A stretch of DNA of 42,168 nt from the NCBI GenBank assembly GCA_903899015.1, contig CAIUHP010000101.1, forward strand, positions 1 to 42,168. Reading direction: 5' to 3'. Numbering within the stretch: position 1 is the stretch's first letter; each line of letters starts with the position of its first letter. Below the pieces are notes generated by a model, which was given only the letters and a program-made list of their open reading frames with translations, made no database searches and was not told the DNA's origin. Positions 19,319 to 28,272 of the stretch are shown here, piece by piece. Origin of the DNA: an uncultured Armatimonadota bacterium (GTDB lineage: Bacteria; Armatimonadota; Fimbriimonadia; Fimbriimonadales; Fimbriimonadaceae). Both the position numbers and the translations under genes were made by a program.

Positions 19319-21450
19319 CGAAGAAGATCGACTTACCACTTATCCTTTTGGCGATCGTCGCCTTCCTTGCTCCGTTGATTGGGGGCCAAATATCAACCGA
19401 TGGACTTGGTCTTACCCCTGGCGCCAATCTTATTCTCACCGCCTTAACGGGAGGTCCAGAAACACCCACTCTTTCCCATGCGTTTTTAACGTCACTTTGC
19501 GCGATCGCTCTCATTGTGATGCTCTTGCAAAGAAAGATCATGCAGGTTCCGAACAGCCTCATGAGCGGGCAGTTACTCATCTTATTCGCGATTATCTGTT
19601 CTTCAGTTGGGTATTCGGAATTCAGGGGAGCGTCCCTACCAGCCGGTATTGAATGGCTAACGTATGGATGTGCTTTCTATGCCGTGGTCGCGATCGCCGG
19701 TCGTCAGCGTGGGCCGGTTGTTCTGCTAACTTCGCTGTTTGCCGGATGCGTACTTCTTGGCCTACTAGGCATTCGAGAATACGGCGATATGAAAGCGATT
19801 GATCCCACTTGGCGAGTCTTTCCACAGTGGGTTGGCCCCAACGCGATGGCGGCAGTCCTTGTGATTGGCCTTTTCGTTGGTATCGGTCTTGCCATCAATT
19901 CTGAACGCCTTGCGGCTCTCGGAATAAGTATTGGGTGCATTGCAATTGGGACGTCTCTGTTCCTCACTCAGTCGAAGGGCGCGATTCTAGCCCTTGTTGT
20001 AAGCGTTCTCATCTTCCTCATCTTGCTCGCCATTTGGGTTCCTAAGAAAGACATTCGTCGATCCATGGGGACTCTGCTTGGCATTATCGGGTGTGTTGCC
20101 TTGATGGCGGCAGCGATCTCGTTTCAGCCTAAAGGTTCGGCGGGGCAAACGGGAAGTCCACTCGGACGTATCACCAATGTCTCAGCGAGCGCCGATCAGT
20201 CCATGGGATTCCGCAAGCTACTGTGGCAAAGTGCATTTAAGCTCATTGAACAAAACCCAGTGGGAACGGGCATCAATGGCTTCCAATATGAATCCGCTCG
20301 ACCCGGCCTGGTAACCCAAACGCGATTAGCGCACCAAACTTATCTTCAGCTTGCCGCAGAAGTTAGCCCGTTAGCCTTCGCACTTTTTATTGGTTCGATC
20401 GGAATGTGGTGGTTCCTCATCCTCAAAGCCGGCAGCAAGCTTGCACCAAAGCAGAACGTATTACGAGCCAGTGTCGCCGCCTCAGTTTCCGGTGTGCTCA
20501 TTCACAGCTTCATCGACAGCGACCTTTCCTATTTCGGCATTGGGATCGTATTCTTCATGCTTTTGGGCGTCGGACTTCTACTAAGCACCGATGCCGTTGC
20601 TCCCGAATTCTTGCCCAGTATTCTCAGAAGGGTGGCCGTCGTGGGGGTTGCAGCCTGTGCGGTATGTCTCACTTTTCTTGGCTACGTAGAAGGAATGAGA
20701 TCTGAGGCTCGGGGACACTTGGCACTTGCACAATATAACGATGCCCAGAACATCCTTCAGTCCCTGCGATCGATGGCACCATGGGATGCAGATACGTTTG
20801 GACTCTCTACACTTTCGACTCGATCTCTAGACGAGCGGCTCACTTACGCGAAGGAAGCGGTCGCCCTCGGCCCCAGCACTCACAACTACCGAACTCTTGC
20901 TCGGGTTCAACTGGATGCAGGCAAACCCTCCGAAGCGAAGGATTCATTGCAAAGGGCGCTTCAGCGAGACCCAAATAACATGGCCGCCCTCACTTTGCTT
21001 GCCGAAGTAAGTAGCAAATCGGGCTTTGACGATGAAGCAAAGAAGGCACTCGTGAAGCTTGTGGATGTCGAAAAATCAACCTACTTCACGATCCGAAGTT
21101 TGCCTGAAATGGTGCCTACCGAAACCTACCATGCTCGAGTGTTGTTAGCTCGGATGGAAACGGATCCTCAGACTCAGATCGATCTGATGCAACCGGCGGT
21201 ATTGGGATACATGGAGTATTTGAACAAGACCGTTCCGAACGTCATAAAATTCGCCAAAGCTCCCGATGGGCCAATGGATTTTGGCGGGGAAACAGTTGAG
21301 AAGGCAAAAGCCAAACTCAAGGAAGCTCAAGAAGCCGCCAAGCTTTTAAAGGAACTCTATCAGCGCTTGGGAGCGGTTGACCGAGCGTCAACTGCTAATT
21401 CGGATGAAGGCTTGTTTGGCAAAGGCTTAGATTCGCTCTCTTTTAAGTAG
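19315..21450 (+). CDS. O-antigen ligase/polymerase-like membrane protein with C-terminal TPR
   Basis: 711 aa. The first ~460 residues hold about 11-12 membrane helices. A Wzy_C/O-antigen-ligase-like block begins around TQSKGAILALVVS (about 222-235) and continues to LAHQTYLQLAAEVSPLAF, where a periplasmic loop and His are expected. After about residue 470 the protein is soluble, with tetratricopeptide-like repeats (AQYNDAQNILQSLRSM, LDAGKPSEAKDSLQRALQRDPNNMAALTLLAEVS). This architecture is known for WaaL/Wzy-type ligases that join or polymerise glycans at the outer face of the inner membrane. It is coupled to the two glycosyltransferases by ATGA overlap. Its last 91 bp overlap the convergent PBP2 gene. 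Confidence 0.88.
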   Translation: MTKKIDLPLILLAIVAFLAPLIGGQISTDGLGLTPGANLILTALTGGPETPTLSHAFLTSLCAIALIVMLLQRKIMQVPNSLMSGQLLILFAIICSSVGYSEFRGASLPAGIEWLTYGCAFYAVVAIAGRQRGPVVLLTSLFAGCVLLGLLGIREYGDMKAIDPTWRVFPQWVGPNAMAAVLVIGLFVGIGLAINSERLAALGISIGCIAIGTSLFLTQSKGAILALVVSVLIFLILLAIWVPKKDIRRSMGTLLGIIGCVALMAAAISFQPKGSAGQTGSPLGRITNVSASADQSMGFRKLLWQSAFKLIEQNPVGTGINGFQYESARPGLVTQTRLAHQTYLQLAAEVSPLAFALFIGSIGMWWFLILKAGSKLAPKQNVLRASVAASVSGVLIHSFIDSDLSYFGIGIVFFMLLGVGLLLSTDAVAPEFLPSILRRVAVVGVAACAVCLTFLGYVEGMRSEARGHLALAQYNDAQNILQSLRSMAPWDADTFGLSTLSTRSLDERLTYAKEAVALGPSTHNYRTLARVQLDAGKPSEAKDSLQRALQRDPNNMAALTLLAEVSSKSGFDDEAKKALVKLVDVEKSTYFTIRSLPEMVPTETYHARVLLARMETDPQTQIDLMQPAVLGYMEYLNKTVPNVIKFAKAPDGPMDFGGETVEKAKAKLKEAQEAAKLLKELYQRLGAVDRASTANSDEGLFGKGLDSLSFK

Positions 21451-23201
21451 CGTTCGACAATGTCTCGTGCGGGAGGGGCGGCTTTATCTCCGCCATGTCC
21501 TTGCGCTTCAATAAAGACACAGATTGCGATTTTAGGATCGTCCTCCGGTGCATATCCAACGAAAACAGCGTGGGTGAGCTGGCCCTTTCCGTGCTCAACG
21601 CTTCCCGTCTTACCGGCCCAAGTCACTCCCGGGATCTTGCCACCATAAGCGGCCGTACCGTGATCGAGCACTCCAACCAGTGCTTTTCGTAGGTTGGCCC
21701 AAAATTCTGCGCTCGCCTCGACGTGGTGAGCAACTTCGGGTTTCACGAGTGAACTTGCGGCTTTTCCATCCGCTGGCTTGATTTCCTTCACCAAGTGCGG
21801 TTTGTAATTGGTGCCGTTATTGGCCACCAAGGCAGCCATGTTTGCAAGTTGGAGCGGTGTTGCGCTGATGTATCCCTGCCCGATTGCGAGATTGAAGGTA
21901 TCTCCCGTCCACCAGCGATGTTTGTTCTTCGTTAGCCACGTGTCGGTTGGAACAACTCCTCGAGCCTCACCACCAATTTCAATTCCTTCTTTTTCACCCA
22001 GGCCAACTTCCAACGCGGCTTGGGTGATGTGATCCTTCCCTGCTACACGACCAAGTTGACAGAAGTAGCTGTTGCATGACTTGGCCATGGCCTCGAAATA
22101 TCCAATATTGCCATGGTAGCTAAGGCATTTCACAAAGGACTTTCCGACCTTAACTCCGCCTTCGCACATATAATGCGTATCCGGACTGAAGACATGATTC
22201 TCGTAGGCCGCGATGCTGGTTATGATCTTGAAAGTCGAGCCGGGTGAGTAGACCGAGCGAATGGCTCGATCGTACATAGGCTTATGTGGGTCGTTGGCAA
22301 CGCTGTTATATTCGCCCTCGGAAAGGCCTCCGGCAAAGATATTCTGGTCAAAAGTGGGGCTACTTACGAGGCATAAGATTTCGCCAGTTTTCGGGTCCAT
22401 CGCGACAACGCCACCCACGTACTGGTGCTCGGCCATGTATTGGGTGGCATATTTCTGCAGGGCAGAATCGATGGTTAAGACGACTTGACTGCCAGGATTG
22501 GCAGCATTTCGCTCGGTCACCCGGACTGGGCGACGCTTAGCGTCGATCTCCTGCTTTTCAGAGCCCGGTTCGCCCATCAGGTCCGATTCAAGGGCTCGCT
22601 CAATGCCAGTCTTTCCAACGAAATTCGCTGGTTTTTTGCCCATCGTGGCAATTCGCTTCTGGTCGTCTTCGCTTGGTGTCCAAACGTAACCCAACAAGTG
22701 AGTAAAACTTCGGCTGTCAGGGTAGTACCGCATCGGTTGCATCACGACACTGATTCCCGGAAGCTCATCTCGCAACTCTGAGATCTTCGATCCCGCTTGA
22801 ATGGTTGCCCCGACAAATATAGGCGAGTCAAGAAAGGGACGATTAGCGGCCGCGCGTAATTTTGTGTCGAGTTTCTTTCGATCTACCTGAAGAATGGCTG
22901 CCACCCGATCAATGACCCAAGGATTCTTCTTGACCTCGGATGGAACGGCCGTAATGACAATTTCTGGTTTGACACCCGCTACCAAGGCCCCGTGCCGATC
23001 AAAGATCAAGCCTCTAGGAGCTGGGCTGTTGACCTCAAGCGTTCGAGAAGACTCAGCCTCTTCAACCAACTCAGGAGCTTTGACGACTTGGAAATACCAC
23101 AGTCGCATAAATAGGATGAGCAACAACGAACCCATCACGCCAGGAAAGGCGAGCATTCGGAGGTCCATCTCAGGTTTACGCGGGGTGTGAATGACTGACA
23201 T
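21360..23201 (-). CDS. mrdA: Penicillin-binding protein 2 (elongasome transpeptidase)
   Basis: 613 aa. One N-terminal membrane anchor (about 13-32) is followed by the PBP dimerisation region (APRGLIFDRHGALVAG, RYYPDSRSFTHLLGYV) and the transpeptidase. Motifs: STFK with nucleophile Ser322, SCN in AKSCNSYFCQLG, KTG at 531-533 followed by SVEHGKGQLTHAVFVGYAP. This class B transpeptidase cross-links side-wall peptidoglycan with RodA and MreB, neither of which is here. It could equally be labelled FtsI-like, but the dimerisation domain reads as PBP2. The gene starts 9 nt after the PBP1A stop. Its own TAGTCT -10 reuses the PBP1A stop codon. Its 3' end overlaps the ligase gene. Confidence 0.93.
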   Translation of the reverse strand: MSVIHTPRKPEMDLRMLAFPGVMGSLLLILFMRLWYFQVVKAPELVEEAESSRTLEVNSPAPRGLIFDRHGALVAGVKPEIVITAVPSEVKKNPWVIDRVAAILQVDRKKLDTKLRAAANRPFLDSPIFVGATIQAGSKISELRDELPGISVVMQPMRYYPDSRSFTHLLGYVWTPSEDDQKRIATMGKKPANFVGKTGIERALESDLMGEPGSEKQEIDAKRRPVRVTERNAANPGSQVVLTIDSALQKYATQYMAEHQYVGGVVAMDPKTGEILCLVSSPTFDQNIFAGGLSEGEYNSVANDPHKPMYDRAIRSVYSPGSTFKIITSIAAYENHVFSPDTHYMCEGGVKVGKSFVKCLSYHGNIGYFEAMAKSCNSYFCQLGRVAGKDHITQAALEVGLGEKEGIEIGGEARGVVPTDTWLTKNKHRWWTGDTFNLAIGQGYISATPLQLANMAALVANNGTNYKPHLVKEIKPADGKAASSLVKPEVAHHVEASAEFWANLRKALVGVLDHGTAAYGGKIPGVTWAGKTGSVEHGKGQLTHAVFVGYAPEDDPKIAICVFIEAQGHGGDKAAPPARDIVERYLKESESKPLPNKPSSELAVDARSTAPKR

Positions 23202-23207
23202 TGGGAA

Positions 23208-23213
23208 AGACTA
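23208..23213 (-). promoter_or_regulatory. -10-like element of PBP2 gene
   Basis: TAGTCT on the minus strand lies 6 nt before the ATG; its first three bases are the TAG stop of the PBP1A gene. Confidence 0.4.
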
Positions 23214-25577
23214 TCCTGGGCCGTGAATGCGGCAAACTCGCTTCGGCTCTTGCCCGCGAGGGAACGTGCGAGTGACCGTCTCATTGCAGTATCGGTTCGC
23301 CCTCAATCCCGACTCAGCACATATTTCTACGCTCACGGTGTCTGACTCATTACTCTTGCTTGGAGTCTTCGAACTGTGCTTGGCGGTGCCTTTCTTGGGG
23401 GCATCGGCCTTAGTATCGGGAGGGGTCCCTTCGTCAGGCTTTGTCTTTGAGTCGCCCGGCGTGCTGGCTGGATCCCCTTTACCTGTGTCATTTGCCGTTG
23501 CGGTAGGAGCACCCGCCGGATCTCCTGATTTTATGGGAGTGCCAGAATCCCCAGCGTCGTCAGTTGTTTTCGAGGCGTCGTCCGTTGTGTCATCCGGTGG
23601 GGCCATCAGGTCGCCCACTTCTGAGTCTGCCGCGGTTGCTTTCTTGGGGGCAGCCGGCTCGCTTGGAGATCGATCCGGTTGGGCTTTGCCGTATTTCTTA
23701 TGTGCTTCGGCCATTACTTTGGCCCAAATTCGCGCAGTGACGGTTCCCCCATAGACCGAGTCGCTCATCGGCACGGGAGTCCAAGTGCCCTTGATCTTCT
23801 TCTCGTTGCCAACCCAACCCACTCCCAATAGACCGTCGGTGTAGCCGGTGAACCACGCATCTTTAGCGTCGTTCGTCGTTCCCGTCTTACCACGAGCATT
23901 TGGAACCGGGCGGGCGGCTTGTCCCGTTCCTTCTTCTACTACTGCGCGGAGCAATTGGTCCATGTCGTCGCAGATTTCAGGATCAAAAACGGATACAAAC
24001 CGATTGGGATCGTACTGCTTCACGACTGAGCCATCTGCGTCAAGAATTCTCACAACTGGCTGAGGTCGAACGCGGTCACCACGGAGCATGAAGACCGAAT
24101 ACGCCTCTGCCATCTCAATTGGTGCCACCGCACTCGCACCAAGAGCAAGCGTTTCATACGGCTCAAGCTTTGAACGGATCCCAAAAATATCGTGAGCTGT
24201 TTCGACAACCGCCTCAGGGCCGATCATTTCAATGGTATGAATGGCCGGTAAGTTCACGCTTTGAGCAAAAGCAGAGCGAAGACTGTACTGGGGCGCGTTC
24301 TCTCGGCGACTTGAATTCCCGGGCTTCCAGACCCGACCAGTAGAGTCAACTTTCACGATTGGCGCGTTGGAAAGCATGCTTCCCATGTTAATAACGCCAG
24401 CCTTTAAGGCAGTAGCATAGAGAATAGCTTTGAACCCAGATCCTGGCTGCAGGGTGCCGCTCGTGATGATATTCTGCTGATGATGACGATAGTTCAGTCC
24501 GCCTACTTCGGCTAAGATCTTGCCATCACTGTCCATAACCATAAAGGCCCCTTGATTGACCTTTTGGTCGCTATTGGCATCGACGATTTCACGGACTGCT
24601 TTTTCGGTAAATCTTTGAAGCTTGTAGTCAAGCGTGGTCTCAATTGTGTAACCACCGTTGACTAGGCTGAGACCCATGTCTTTCTCAACAAACCGAATGA
24701 CATGGTCGACAAAGTATTCGGCTCCCGGTTTAACCTTGACACCACCACCGCTTGGCTTGGGGTTCACGTGAGGTTTTTCATTGACCGCTTTGTCGTATTG
24801 GGCTTGAGTGATCATTTGCTCGTCAAGCATGATCCCAAGCACCACATCGCGATTCTCGAGGGCCTTATTGATATCGCGAATTGGGTTCTCGGTGCTTGGA
24901 AGGCGAATGCATCGAGCAAGCATTGCGGCTTCGCCAAGCGTTAATTCGTCAATATTCTTGCCGAAGTAAACGCGGGCAGCTTCCCCGATTCCGAAGGCAC
25001 CTTCACCGAAGAAAACTTTATTGAGATACAGCTCAAGAATCTGATCTTTGGGCAAATTCTGTTCAAGCACATTCGCATAAGCGATGTCGTTCATCTTGCG
25101 CTTGAAGGTTCGAGAACTGCCGTTGAATAGCAACTTCACCAGCTGCATCGTGATCGTGCTTCCACCTTGGGAGACTCGGTGTTTACCGGCTGCGACAAAA
25201 ACGATCCGGGCGAGGGCGGTCATGTCGACCCCGGTGTGTTTGTAGAAGCGCTTATCCTCTGCCGCTAACACGGCATTCTGAACGAACTTTGGAATTTGAC
25301 TGAGCTTGAGCGGAATACGGTATTCGGAGCTGACGCTGAACAGTACTTCCCCGTCTGAGCTCAATATCTTGCTTGTGGGTTTATTTACGGAGTCAATATG
25401 CTTCTGGAGGTCAAGCATGGCCTCCTTAGCATCGTTATAGGCGTTATTGTACAGAATGCCTAAGATTGAAGCGGCAATGAGAACGACCGACGCAAACAGG
25501 ATAAGACCCTGTTTAATCCTCCGTACCCACGGGGACTTCCGGTTTCCAGTTGCACGCGGCCGATTTTTAGATGCCAC
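23211..25577 (-). CDS. ponA: Bifunctional class A penicillin-binding protein (PBP1A)
   Basis: 788 aa. Membrane anchor about 24-43. Glycosyltransferase domain (GT51) about 80-245 with catalytic Glu107 in AAEDKRFYKH, then GGSTITMQLVK. Transpeptidase domain about 300-640 with nucleophile Ser in GSGFKAILYA, SVNLPA, and KTGTTNDAKDAWF. A disordered Pro/Asp/Thr/Lys-rich segment of about 100 residues (about 645-745) follows. The end is a Cys-containing tail (ICAESGLRANRYCNETVTRTF) known from PBP1A of Firmicutes and Deinococcus-type bacteria. It polymerises and cross-links peptidoglycan. The GTG start at 25577 is placed by TATAAT 5 nt upstream. It follows the RseB-like gene by 13 nt. Confidence 0.96.
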   Translation of the reverse strand: MASKNRPRATGNRKSPWVRRIKQGLILFASVVLIAASILGILYNNAYNDAKEAMLDLQKHIDSVNKPTSKILSSDGEVLFSVSSEYRIPLKLSQIPKFVQNAVLAAEDKRFYKHTGVDMTALARIVFVAAGKHRVSQGGSTITMQLVKLLFNGSSRTFKRKMNDIAYANVLEQNLPKDQILELYLNKVFFGEGAFGIGEAARVYFGKNIDELTLGEAAMLARCIRLPSTENPIRDINKALENRDVVLGIMLDEQMITQAQYDKAVNEKPHVNPKPSGGGVKVKPGAEYFVDHVIRFVEKDMGLSLVNGGYTIETTLDYKLQRFTEKAVREIVDANSDQKVNQGAFMVMDSDGKILAEVGGLNYRHHQQNIITSGTLQPGSGFKAILYATALKAGVINMGSMLSNAPIVKVDSTGRVWKPGNSSRRENAPQYSLRSAFAQSVNLPAIHTIEMIGPEAVVETAHDIFGIRSKLEPYETLALGASAVAPIEMAEAYSVFMLRGDRVRPQPVVRILDADGSVVKQYDPNRFVSVFDPEICDDMDQLLRAVVEEGTGQAARPVPNARGKTGTTNDAKDAWFTGYTDGLLGVGWVGNEKKIKGTWTPVPMSDSVYGGTVTARIWAKVMAEAHKKYGKAQPDRSPSEPAAPKKATAADSEVGDLMAPPDDTTDDASKTTDDAGDSGTPIKSGDPAGAPTATANDTGKGDPASTPGDSKTKPDEGTPPDTKADAPKKGTAKHSSKTPSKSNESDTVSVEICAESGLRANRYCNETVTRTFPRGQEPKRVCRIHGPG

Positions 25578-25582
25578 AAAGG

Positions 25583-25588
25583 ATTATA
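25583..25588 (-). promoter_or_regulatory. -10 element of PBP1A gene (leaderless)
   Basis: Consensus TATAAT on the minus strand lies 5 nt before the GTG, within the 13-nt gap after the RseB-like gene. Confidence 0.5.
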
Positions 25589-25590
25589 AC

Positions 25591-26589
25591 TTAGTGTCGT
25601 AGAGGTGAAGTTCCTGCAACAAGCATCGAGCTGAACCGAGTAAGCGTTTTTTCGTCCAAAGTCCCCATCAGCACGATAGATTCTCCCGTCAAATCAATCG
25701 AATGTACATGGAGATTTTTTCCTGCATTGGCACGCAGTCGTTCTGGATTGAGTGGAGCTTTGAGGACGTAAAGCCACAAACGATCTTGCCCGTTCACGTA
25801 GGTTTCGACGAGTCCGTCCACACCGGCAAAGTTTCGATAGCTCGAGCCTTCAAGGGAATATCCGGTTAGCGGGGGCAAATATCGAACAACAAAACCTCGT
25901 CGCTTTGCAATCCTTTCAAGTTGAATAAGCGGGGTGACGATTTTTGCATTCTTGCGCCGAATCTGGAACATTGAAGGGTCGATTACCGGCGACAAATTGA
26001 TTTGATTAAACTCAAGAAAACCAATTTGTGTACCCACTTTGTCGAAAAGCAGTCGCTTCAGGATGACGCCTGACTCTGGCTCAATGAAGAGGCGCTGAAC
26101 GATGTTTCCGTCGAAATCCGAGACTTCAAGTTGCTCGGTATGAAGTCCGGCAATCATTTCTCCTGGAGCAACGGTCAATACAAACTTCTTATTGTTTGCG
26201 AGATTCGCTACCTTCTCCCAGGCCTCACCATGACGTGGAGGTTGCTGCATGATCTCGTTGGTCACAGGATGATAATGCAGGCGGACATCTTTGTTTTCGA
26301 CAATGACTTGTCCTGCAAATTGCGAATCATTTGGAAACTCGATCCGATACCAAATACCGTCGCGCGTGATGAATTCTTGATGTCTGACAGTGTTTGAACC
26401 CTGTCGAAATTCCGTAGTGTACGTGCCGGTATATCTCAGCGTCGGCTGAGCACGAATCGCCCGGACGAGAAGAGCCGGAGCGCCCGCTAATCTGCGCTTA
26501 GCGCGTTGCTTGAAAAGCCCTTGTGCCTGAATCGGCGAGGCAAGCGCCGCCGTCAGGAAAATGGCTCCAATCGCAGTCCGATTCATCAT
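25591..26589 (-). CDS. RseB/MucB-like periplasmic regulator (LolA-type fold)
   Basis: 332 aa with a signal peptide (cleavage near ASPIQAQ, about residue 23). The N-terminal half (about 50-215) has strands such as YTGTYTTEFRQG, GIWYRIEFPND and QRLFIEPESGVILKRLLFD, the LolA/RseB half-barrel that senses lipids or outer-membrane precursors. The C-terminal region (about 235-330, FVVRYLPPLTGYSL... VETYVNGQDRLWLYV) matches the smaller second domain of RseB/MucB. It starts with ATGATGA overlapping the stop of the anti-sigma candidate. Together with the ECF sigma gene upstream this suggests a protein that guards an anti-sigma factor. A plain outer-membrane lipoprotein-sorting protein is the alternative. 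Confidence 0.75.
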   Translation of the reverse strand: MMNRTAIGAIFLTAALASPIQAQGLFKQRAKRRLAGAPALLVRAIRAQPTLRYTGTYTTEFRQGSNTVRHQEFITRDGIWYRIEFPNDSQFAGQVIVENKDVRLHYHPVTNEIMQQPPRHGEAWEKVANLANNKKFVLTVAPGEMIAGLHTEQLEVSDFDGNIVQRLFIEPESGVILKRLLFDKVGTQIGFLEFNQINLSPVIDPSMFQIRRKNAKIVTPLIQLERIAKRRGFVVRYLPPLTGYSLEGSSYRNFAGVDGLVETYVNGQDRLWLYVLKAPLNPERLRANAGKNLHVHSIDLTGESIVLMGTLDEKTLTRFSSMLVAGTSPLRH

Positions 26590-27041
26590 AAACCTTGAAC
26601 GTCAGAATCATTCCAAAGCCCATCCTCTGGTTCCTGAGGGTTCGCTTCTGACGTTACTTCATTGGCATTCAAACCAGCGCTAGAAACTTCATTAAACAAA
26701 ACGGAATTGTGGTGATCGGTCAAGATAGCCGACTCCAAACTCTTATCTGCGACCGGACTCGTTCGCGGTGCGTGAGGTTGGAACATCACCACGACAGCGA
26801 GAACACTTGCGAGACCTAAGCCAAGTGCTGGGCGCAGTACCCAGGCCAATCTCTGCTTCTTTCGCTTCTTAGCGGCCGCTTCAAGCAATTTCTCGTTGAG
26901 AGAACTGCGCCAAGCCATGCTCAGAGGCTCATCCGGCAAGGACTGAACCATCTTGCTGATGGCTAGCTGGCCTGCACTCTCCAGCTTTCTGTCCATTGAA
27001 TTTTCCGAGTTACTTCTCTTGTTCATCATCTCTCTAAGCAC
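26586..27041 (-). CDS. Candidate membrane anti-sigma factor
   Basis: 151 aa from the GTG at 27041 (GGAGA just upstream, inside the end of the ECF gene). A cytoplasmic N-terminal part of about 70 residues, rich in Lys/Arg near its end (AAAKKRKKQRLAW), precedes one membrane helix (about 73-90, ALGLGLASVLAVVVMF). An acidic outside tail of about 60 residues follows, with AWRSSLNEKLLEAAAKK before the helix. This topology and place (directly after an ECF sigma gene, before an RseB-like gene) fit an RseA-like anti-sigma factor. It lacks the HxxxCxxC zinc motif of ZAS anti-sigmas. ATGs at 27029/27026 are alternative starts. Confidence 0.7.
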   Translation of the reverse strand: MLREMMNKRSNSENSMDRKLESAGQLAISKMVQSLPDEPLSMAWRSSLNEKLLEAAAKKRKKQRLAWVLRPALGLGLASVLAVVVMFQPHAPRTSPVADKSLESAILTDHHNSVLFNEVSSAGLNANEVTSEANPQEPEDGLWNDSDVQGL

Positions 27042-27621
27042 CGGTCTCCATATAGCGCTTCAAAACGTCTTGCAAGTGAGCTCGAGCTAAGAACAATCGA
27101 CTCTTAACTGTACCCACCGGTAAGCCCAGCGTTTGTGCGATTTCTTCATATCCCATGTCTTCTTTGTCGTGAAGAATCAACACGCTTCGTAGCTTTTCGC
27201 TCATCGATCGAATCCCTTCCTCAACGATCGACATCAGTTCTTCGTCGATCACGAGTTGCTCTGGTTGCCATCGGCTATCGGCAACATCCACTTCGTCACC
27301 ATCGGTAGGATCGTAAAGTCCGACTTCGTGAGGTGCTCGAGCATTCTTTCTAGCTCGATCGACGCATAGGTGATACGCGATTCGAAAGAGCCAAGTGCGA
27401 ACGGAGCACCGTCCATCGAACCGGTCGAAATTCTGGAAGGCTCGGATAAAAACATCCTGAGTGATGTCGGCCGCTTCGTCAGCGTTCGTGACCATTCGGC
27501 GGATGAAACCGAAGACTCGGTTTTGATACGCATCTACCAACTGGCCAAATGCTTCGAAATCCTGTTTCCGGCATCGATCAACAATCGCGGATTCAGAAGC
27601 TTGATCTCGAGGTTCCCTCAA
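27034..27621 (-). CDS. ECF-family RNA polymerase sigma factor
   Basis: About 195 aa from the TTG at 27621, preferred because AGGGG sits 4 nt upstream and the family core starts soon after (AIVDRCRKQDFEAFGQLVDA). A TTG at 27669 or ATG at 27654 would add 11-16 residues of unlike composition. Region 2 contains VFGFIRRMV and DEAADITQDVFIRAFQNFDRF; region 4 contains LRSVLILHDKEDMGYEEIAQ and GTVKSRLFLARAHL. No region 3, as normal for ECF. It is followed by overlapping genes for a membrane anti-sigma candidate and an RseB-like protein, so it is probably an envelope-stress sigma factor. The promoters it recognises are unknown. Confidence 0.93.
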   Translation of the reverse strand: MREPRDQASESAIVDRCRKQDFEAFGQLVDAYQNRVFGFIRRMVTNADEAADITQDVFIRAFQNFDRFDGRCSVRTWLFRIAYHLCVDRARKNARAPHEVGLYDPTDGDEVDVADSRWQPEQLVIDEELMSIVEEGIRSMSEKLRSVLILHDKEDMGYEEIAQTLGLPVGTVKSRLFLARAHLQDVLKRYMETGA

Positions 27622-27623
27622 TT

Positions 27624-27683
27624 TTCCCCTAACCGCACCGACACAGATCACCATGATTGTTAGGCACAAACGAAGGCCTAACC
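27624..27683 (-). promoter_or_regulatory. Possible RNA switch before the ECF sigma gene
   Basis: On the minus strand, GTTAGGC (27676-27682), then GCCTAAC (27659-27665), then GTTAGGGG at the Shine-Dalgarno (about 27624-27631). The middle copy can pair with the first (7 bp, 10-nt loop) or with the Shine-Dalgarno copy (6 bp), not both. The dyad could instead be a DNA operator. Confidence 0.3.
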
Positions 27684-27709: not shown

Positions 27710-27734
27710 GGGCCAAGAATATTCTTCTTGGCCC
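27710..27734 (-). terminator. Intrinsic terminator of the beta-barrel gene
   Basis: GGGCCAAGAA (27710-27719) pairs perfectly with TTCTTGGCCC (27725-27734) around a 5-nt loop. On the minus strand GTTCTTATTTATT follows, separating the beta-barrel gene from the ECF operon. Confidence 0.9.
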
Positions 27735-27756: not shown

Positions 27757-28272
27757 TTAGAAACGAACGCCGACGTAGACGCCAATACCAGCTACACGTG
27801 GTTGCTGATTGCCAAGGTATCGGACTTCAAGGAAAGCCGGAAGTTCGGCGTTGTTGAAGTTGTAACCAATTGCTGCGCCATACGCGAAGCGAACCATATC
27901 GTTCTGGCCACCGCCATCCTCGACGAATCGAGTAAAGCCTGCGCCAACGCCAACTGAGTAATAGATCTGCTTGCCAACGGTGTAGTTTACCATGACAGGC
28001 AAATTGCGGAAGTTGCCATTGCTAGCGTAATCCACCGAAAGGGAAACGGAGCCGCCCTGTAAAAGAGGGAGCTTAGCGTCTTTCAGCTTGTAATCAACAC
28101 CAGCCGAGAACCAAGTGCTTGTAGTGGCATCTCGAGTTGCAGTCTGAGTTGGGTAGAAACCACCAACTCGAACCGAAACTCCCGATTGACCTGCAAGGTC
28201 GTCTGCGAACGCAGACATCGTCGCACATGCGAATACGGCTGCGAAAGCCGAAATTGTTAACAATTTTTTCAT
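27757..28272 (-). CDS. Small outer-membrane beta-barrel-like protein
   Basis: 171 aa with a clear signal peptide (cleavage after SAFA, about residue 23). The mature part alternates polar and hydrophobic residues in short strands (SVRVGGFYP, TWFSAGVDYKL, SVSLSVDYAS, MVNYTVGKQIYYSVGVGAGF, FLEVRYLG, GIGVYVGVRF) and ends in Phe, the classical outer-membrane insertion signal. About eight strands suggest an OmpA/OmpX-size barrel. Function is unknown. GGAGGAT lies 5 nt before the ATG. It has its own terminator and sits just upstream of the envelope-stress sigma operon, which makes it a plausible target of that regulator, though nothing in the sequence proves it. Confidence 0.78.
   Translation of the reverse strand: MKKLLTISAFAAVFACATMSAFADDLAGQSGVSVRVGGFYPTQTATRDATTSTWFSAGVDYKLKDAKLPLLQGGSVSLSVDYASNGNFRNLPVMVNYTVGKQIYYSVGVGAGFTRFVEDGGGQNDMVRFAYGAAIGYNFNNAELPAFLEVRYLGNQQPRVAGIGVYVGVRF

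Follow-up and report, generated by a model that had tools for sequence, protein, structure and literature searches.

The five genes described here lie on the minus strand of the window, a stretch of 42,168 nucleotides (nt) from an uncultured Armatimonadota bacterium of the family Fimbriimonadaceae (contig CAIUHP010000101.1), and run from 27654 to 21360 in the order extracytoplasmic function (ECF) sigma factor, anti-sigma candidate, RseB-like protein, class A penicillin-binding protein (PBP) and PBP2. The best explanation of this locus is that two units stand end to end, a stress module formed by the first three genes and a housekeeping wall-synthase unit formed by the last two, with stress transcription of the former adding PBP to the supply of the latter; its chances are put at about even. 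Because the wall genes appear to have a promoter of their own, stress control of wall building is no more than plausible in this locus. The genes and promoter elements are the following:

27034 to 27654, minus strand: ECF sigma factor (SIG), 206 amino acids (aa), whose ATG stands 14 nt past the promoter -10
26586 to 27041, minus strand: anti-sigma candidate (ASIG), 151 aa, zinc-less, with about 71 cytoplasmic residues, one membrane span and an SLAWRSxLNE motif
25591 to 26589, minus strand: RseB-like periplasmic protein (RSEB), 332 aa, with a signal peptide, a LolA-like domain and a C-terminal domain
23211 to 25577, minus strand: class A PBP (PBP1A type), the sole GT51 protein found in the genome
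21360 to 23201, minus strand: class B PBP2 (MrdA type), the sole TIGR03423 match over the cut-off in the genome
27669 to 27694, minus strand: ECF-type promoter CTGAAC-N15-TCGTT upstream of the sigma gene
25583 to 25588, minus strand: -10 element TATAAT, leaderless housekeeping-type, 5 nt 5' of the PBP1A GTG

SIG and ASIG overlap by 8 nt and ASIG and RSEB by 4 nt, while RSEB is separated from PBP1A by 13 nt and PBP1A from PBP2 by 9 nt, which bears out an earlier reading made from the sequence alone (the sequence-only reading) that the order from sigma to PBP2 is contiguous, each gene overlapping the next or lying no more than 13 nt from it. That reading placed the sigma start, and so the end of the locus, at 27621; this is corrected to the ATG at 27654, because the near-leaderless start found there is common to relatives, and this ATG is also preferred to the TTG at 27669 chosen by the open reading frame (ORF) tool. 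No terminator-like site was found between RSEB and PBP1A in the window, and 51 linked relatives have no more than 70 nt between these two genes.

Conservation was followed in 107 neighbourhoods including the window, of which 53 belong to the family of the window (f1), 5 to f5, its sister family on a PBP tree, and 49 to other groups: 7 to f2, 1 to f3 and 1 to f4, which are other families of the order, and 40 to 35 families outside the order. The f1 set consists of the window, 36 f1 genomes, and 16 out of another 37 f1 genomes that have an RseB-like match. The RseB-like profile was built from 42 proteins and, searched in 251 genomes drawn from the phylum, matches 231 of them. In 53/53 f1, 5/5 f5 and 49/49 other loci, rseB has a sigma gene on its own strand not more than 3 kb upstream. 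The trio is an RpoE/RseA/RseB-like module which is phylum-wide and kept in every locus examined (58/58 and 49/49). The only f1 genomes of the phylum profile search without an RseB-like match are G215 and G217 (genus g41), which have small genomes of 1.5 Mb and may have lost the module.

The sigma protein matches Sigma70_r2 (5e-18) and Sigma70_r4_2 (1.1e-14) and is an ECF sigma with regions 2 and 4; it scores 120 bits against the RpoE equivalog model TIGR02939, below the cut-off of 236.15. The RseB-like protein stays under the cut-off of PF03888 (MucB_RseB), with an E-value of 0.018 and 15.1 versus 22.3 bits, a PF03888 search of the genome of the window gave no match at 1e-3, and a PDB sequence search with this protein gave no match. 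Its AlphaFold2 model, made from 42 sequences, has a predicted local distance difference test score of 92.6 and a predicted template modelling score (pTM) of 0.84, and in a Foldseek comparison with the PDB the 15 top-ranked chains, which cover residues 37-329, all come from RseB of E. coli or MucB of P. aeruginosa (E 3.6e-14 to 1.2e-10), LolA ranking after them (E 2.8e-8). The VIA Z of the model is 16.6 over residues 37-329, with a root-mean-square deviation of about 10 when both domains are superposed at once and of 2.7-2.8 for the first domain alone. The two-domain RseB fold, unclear by sequence, is thus clear in the predicted structure, so the protein, first read as RseB- or LolA-like, is RseB-like by modelled fold.

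The anti-sigma candidate has no Pfam match and no zinc motif, and HxxxCxxC is absent from 37/37 aligned f1 and f5 members, in line with the single-span, zinc-less protein proposed from the sequence, while a W-R-x-x-x-N motif is kept in all 37. A crude ORF search found an anti-sigma ORF of at least 90 aa in 34 of the 49 other loci, 30 of which carry HxxxCxxC, and Pfam labels 3/3 tested f2 and f4 anti-sigma proteins zf-HC2. With the motif missing from all aligned f1 and f5 members and present in most others, the zinc finger seems to have been lost in the ancestry of f1 and f5. The structure model of the candidate has a pTM of 0.33; its putative anti-sigma activity is proposed from its position and from the zinc-finger counterparts in the same slot elsewhere. 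The site-2 protease RseP is over the cut-off in 5/5 genomes. Many of the f1 anti-sigma proteins have an acidic, hydrophobic tail at their end, W-x-x-x-D-x-x-x-L (26586-26640 in the window), which is a candidate contact for RseB or for a protease.

An unbiased count of dyads upstream of the sigma gene ranked TGAAC-N16-CGTT and TGAAC-N16-CGTC highest, with about 22-23 of the 57 loci for each, and no dyad exceeded 4 loci in the shuffled set. Exact TGAAC-N16-CGTY precedes the sigma gene in 45/53 f1, 1/5 f5 and 26/49 other loci (0.12, 0.01 and 0.07 in shuffles), and with a spacer of 15-17 and any base after CGT these numbers rise to 49, 4 and 30 loci. The copy in the window stands at 27694-27669, the sigma ATG following 14 nt later. 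The trio is therefore very probably autoregulated through this ECF-type motif.

The PBP1A protein matches Transgly (1.6e-56) and Transpeptidase (2e-24) and is a class A PBP with GT51 and transpeptidase domains, although with 480.8 bits it stays below the cut-off of 508.75 of TIGR02074 (PBP_1a_fam); PBP2 is over the TIGR03423 cut-off (548.2 versus 455 bits). GT51 occurs exactly once in each of 37 f1 and 8 f5 genomes (f2 has two in one genome and zero in two genomes), and TIGR03423 is over the cut-off exactly once in 13/13 genomes. PBP1A and PBP2 are therefore the housekeeping wall synthases of the cell. MreC is encoded away from the locus. Of 8 genomes looked at in which trio and pair are separated, 6 retain PBP1A next to PBP2, and G203 and G030 do not.

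The trio is followed by PBP1A in 47/53 f1 loci and by PBP1A and PBP2 in 43/53 f1 and 5/5 f5 loci, one of the ten f1 failures (L049) being a contig end. The gene order is conserved far beyond chance. The sequence-only reading had proposed conservation in the phylum as a check, and this extends to the two families; elsewhere a PBP1A or PBP2 match near the trio was found in 0/49 loci within the stretch fetched, some stretches being short. The order is thus no feature of the phylum, and outside the family the outcome is the one that this reading named as its refutation, separation of the PBP genes from the sigma operon in most relatives. A FastTree phylogeny of PBP1A and PBP2 from 56 genomes, for which f2 was assumed as the root and in which some inner nodes are weakly supported, groups f1 with f5 to the exclusion of f2 and f3 and places five genera with separated genes inside f1, which fits one gain of the linkage followed by at least five losses; the same tree would also allow the linkage to be older and to have disappeared from f2 and f3. 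The gain of the PBP genes behind the trio coincides on this tree with the loss of the anti-sigma zinc motif.

Such conservation could also be adjacency without function, in which the PBP unit landed behind the module once in the ancestor of the two families and stayed there by block inertia, the sigma factor being irrelevant to PBP supply. This explanation is a serious one, though rather doubtful, and several observations that weigh against stress control of the pair speak for it. PBP2 and its convergent, unrelated neighbour Wzy stay together at least as often (41/42) as RSEB and PBP1A (47/53), whose adjacency is not much better kept than that of SIG and OMP, a small outer-membrane beta-barrel gene (43/52 in f1, 5/5 in f5), and five separations sit inside f1 on the tree. 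Where PBP1A (7 loci) or PBP2 on its own (2 loci) lies elsewhere, the 400 nt upstream contain a sigma site in 0/9 cases, so sigma control of the pair is not generally selected for. The 49 other loci were, moreover, the best RseB-like match per genome, a choice of the analysis itself. On the other hand, trio and pair are joined in 5/5 f5 loci with gaps of at most 70 nt, although M20 has left OMP there (adjoining it in 0/5), and the coincidence of PBP gain and zinc loss also counts against inertia.

The pair appears to have its own promoter at the PBP1A start. The upstream sequences, when read, show TATAAT directly 5' of this start, in many relatives as well as in the window, and a position-specific test (a -10 hexamer with at least 5/6 matches, 4-10 nt before an in-frame start, compared with shuffles) finds a leaderless -10 before PBP1A in 34/52 loci (32/47 f1, 2/5 f5), with 1.5 in shuffles. 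Before PBP2 the count is near background (3/48, shuffle 1.1), so of the -10-like elements once suspected before both PBP genes only that of PBP1A is real and conserved, in line with the separate expression then suspected. Genes inside operons, taken as controls, rarely carry such an element (ASIG 2/58, RSEB 2/58, GT2b 0/38, Wzy 0/42), and probable first genes carry it in M20 9/39, GT2a 9/31 and OMP 6/50 cases. PBP1A located elsewhere retains it in 4/7 loci, two of these before an internal in-frame start, a retention which also suits adjacency without function. A Shine-Dalgarno sequence shows no excess before PBP1A (5/52, shuffle 7.5), as before M20 (4/39, 3.8), while it does before ASIG (44/58, 18.3) and GT2b (18/38, 5.2); RSEB (13/58, 9.9) is also without excess but often overlaps ASIG. 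Leaderless -10 and missing Shine-Dalgarno excess together make PBP1A look like the head of a leaderless unit. By the rule of the test the element is missing in 18/52 PBP1A loci, including 3/5 of f5, which tells against an own promoter throughout.

A different account makes all five genes a single operon in which PBP1A and PBP2 rely chiefly on the sigma factor, so that cells could not grow without it. The tight packing, the lack of an internal terminator and the strong ECF promoter in front would suit it, but the conserved TATAAT-type element at the PBP1A start speaks against it, and it is judged improbable. A two-hexamer sigma-70 scan, empty upstream of the PBPs, would seem to favour it too; since this pattern is equally empty before M20, GT2a and OMP, it has no power here, its silence before the PBPs says nothing, and the scan was rejected as evidence on internal promoters. 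TAnnnT hexamers anywhere in 150 nt were likewise uninformative (PBP1A 43/52 versus 42.8 expected, PBP2 24/48 versus 33.0 expected).

In the explanation by two abutting units, the first, formed by sigma, anti-sigma and RseB, would work like RpoE/RseA/RseB, which serves as the model for the trio (PMC8103513, in the portion of the text available). The anti-sigma factor would hold the sigma factor at the membrane and the RseB-like protein would guard its periplasmic tail; envelope damage would lead to anti-sigma proteolysis, and the freed sigma factor would transcribe its own operon from TGAAC-N16-CGTT. The second unit, PBP1A-PBP2, would be transcribed in growth from the leaderless TATAAT promoter. 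With no terminator between the units, stress transcription should read through from the first into the second and raise wall-synthase supply. Such a read-through transcript may be translated poorly if the PBP1A start lacks a Shine-Dalgarno sequence, which would weaken the boost. The terminator-free junction, the short gaps and the f5 linkage, set against the missing sigma sites at relocated genes and the ordinary adjacency, lead to two abutting units with a stress boost that is likely but unproven. The proposal of the sequence-only reading that stress directly adjusts wall synthesis is thus partly supported, by the RpoE/RseA/RseB-like module, its autoregulatory promoter, the pair behind the trio, the sole GT51 and the open junction, and opposed by the restriction of the order to two families, the own -10 of PBP1A, the 0/9 relocated sigma sites and a linkage no better than that of PBP2-Wzy. 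A broader statement, that in f1 and f5 an RseB-type outer-membrane stress pathway is wired in cis by read-through to the only class A PBP and the only elongation PBP2, peptidoglycan synthesis rising directly upon outer-envelope damage, in an ancestor which also rebuilt the anti-sigma factor with loss of its zinc finger, is tentative and carries more doubt than confidence.

Among known systems, RpoE/RseA/RseB of E. coli and AlgU/MucA/MucB of P. aeruginosa share with the locus the order sigma, single-span anti-sigma, RseB, the two-domain RseB fold, the autoregulated operon, here by conserved motif, and the presence of RseP. The locus differs from them in a sigma factor at 120 bits against an RpoE cut-off of 236, an RseB under the Pfam cut-off, the promoter TGAAC-N16-CGTY, the anti-sigma zinc motif in most other Armatimonadota loci, and PBP1A-PBP2 behind the trio in one family pair. 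Zinc and zinc-less anti-sigma domains mix within groups, according to the available part of PMC7406223. In sigP-rsiP-pbpP of Bacillus thuringiensis an ECF sigma and an anti-sigma gene are also directly followed by a PBP gene; that PBP, as the accessible portion of the paper describes it, serves specifically to sense beta-lactams and forms a separate transcription unit, and no RseB accompanies it (PMC8092216), while at the present locus the PBPs are the only class A PBP and the only PBP2.

By analogy with this system, the PBPs could themselves be sensors, in the way that PbpP acts for sigma-P, with PBP1A or PBP2, free or drug-bound, altering the complex of RseB and anti-sigma. A precedent exists, pbpP lying immediately downstream of sigP-rsiP and being required for activation (PMC8092216, in the same portion), but nothing in the sequences here points to sensing, the PBPs are housekeeping enzymes, and the trio stands without an adjoining PBP in 49/49 loci elsewhere, so this is very improbable. 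The sigma-I and sigma-M regulons of Bacillus subtilis likewise use alternative sigmas to raise wall-synthesis capacity; in what was available of PMC7478892, this is trans control of scattered genes and not class A PBP and PBP2 genes behind a sigma gene. SsdC (YdcC) of Bacillus subtilis spores is an RseB-like protein outside Proteobacteria tied to envelope shape, but it is membrane-anchored and sporulation-specific, and no sigma/anti-sigma operon is described for it in the text consulted (PMC7769602). No published report of a trio followed by PBP1A-PBP2 was found in a limited literature search, which does not establish its absence from print.

Should read-through occur, gene order alone would let outer-envelope damage determine how much of the only bifunctional wall synthase is made, a simple and testable link from outer-membrane sensing to peptidoglycan synthesis in a diderm phylum that branches deeply. 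Whether or not read-through occurs, the trio and its promoter provide a defined envelope-stress pathway for Armatimonadota, and show the RseB-type sigma module to be old and widespread beyond Proteobacteria.

Wider targets of the sigma factor were sought with the pattern STGAACHHN14CGTY, the reversed pattern serving as control. The genome of the window has 30 matches versus 32 of the control, no excess, which counts against the explanation by two units, while G008, a genome from the genus of the window, has 31 versus 18. By the ORF rule used, 6/30 matches in the genome of the window lie outside ORFs; besides that of the sigma gene, they precede two DUF1800 genes, one DUF1501 gene and one secreted protein without Pfam match, and L175 has just a short ORF behind it. 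Two LTXXQ-family genes and one DUF1501 gene have such a match upstream in G008. The sigma-type motif loci are L151, L153 and L157 in the genome of the window and L189, L204 and L181 in G008. DUF1800, DUF1501 and LTXXQ-family genes are possible shared stress targets of the sigma factor, a set which is suggestive only. LTXXQ is the family of CpxP and Spy, so such genes as targets would suit envelope stress.

The flanks of the locus hold the following features:

27757 to 28272, minus strand: small outer-membrane beta-barrel gene (OMP) upstream of the sigma gene
27710 to 27734, minus strand: intrinsic-terminator-like hairpin at the end of the upstream OMP unit, with a 10-pair stem, a 5-base loop and a T-rich tail
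21360 to 21450, both strands: convergent 3'-end overlap of 91 nt between PBP2 and a Wzy/TPR gene

The OMP product ends in Phe. DegS-activating outer-membrane protein tails end in this way, and by this analogy the beta-barrel might be part of the sensing circuit. Many f1 relatives, L031, L032 and L044 among them, have similar convergent overlaps of PBP2 and Wzy, while the overlap is 4 nt in L070 and L059 of f5 has none. Leaderless -10 elements stand directly 5' of the start codons of M20, GT2a and PBP1A (17515 and 28349 in the window, and in relatives), which suggests that leaderless transcripts are common in this family.

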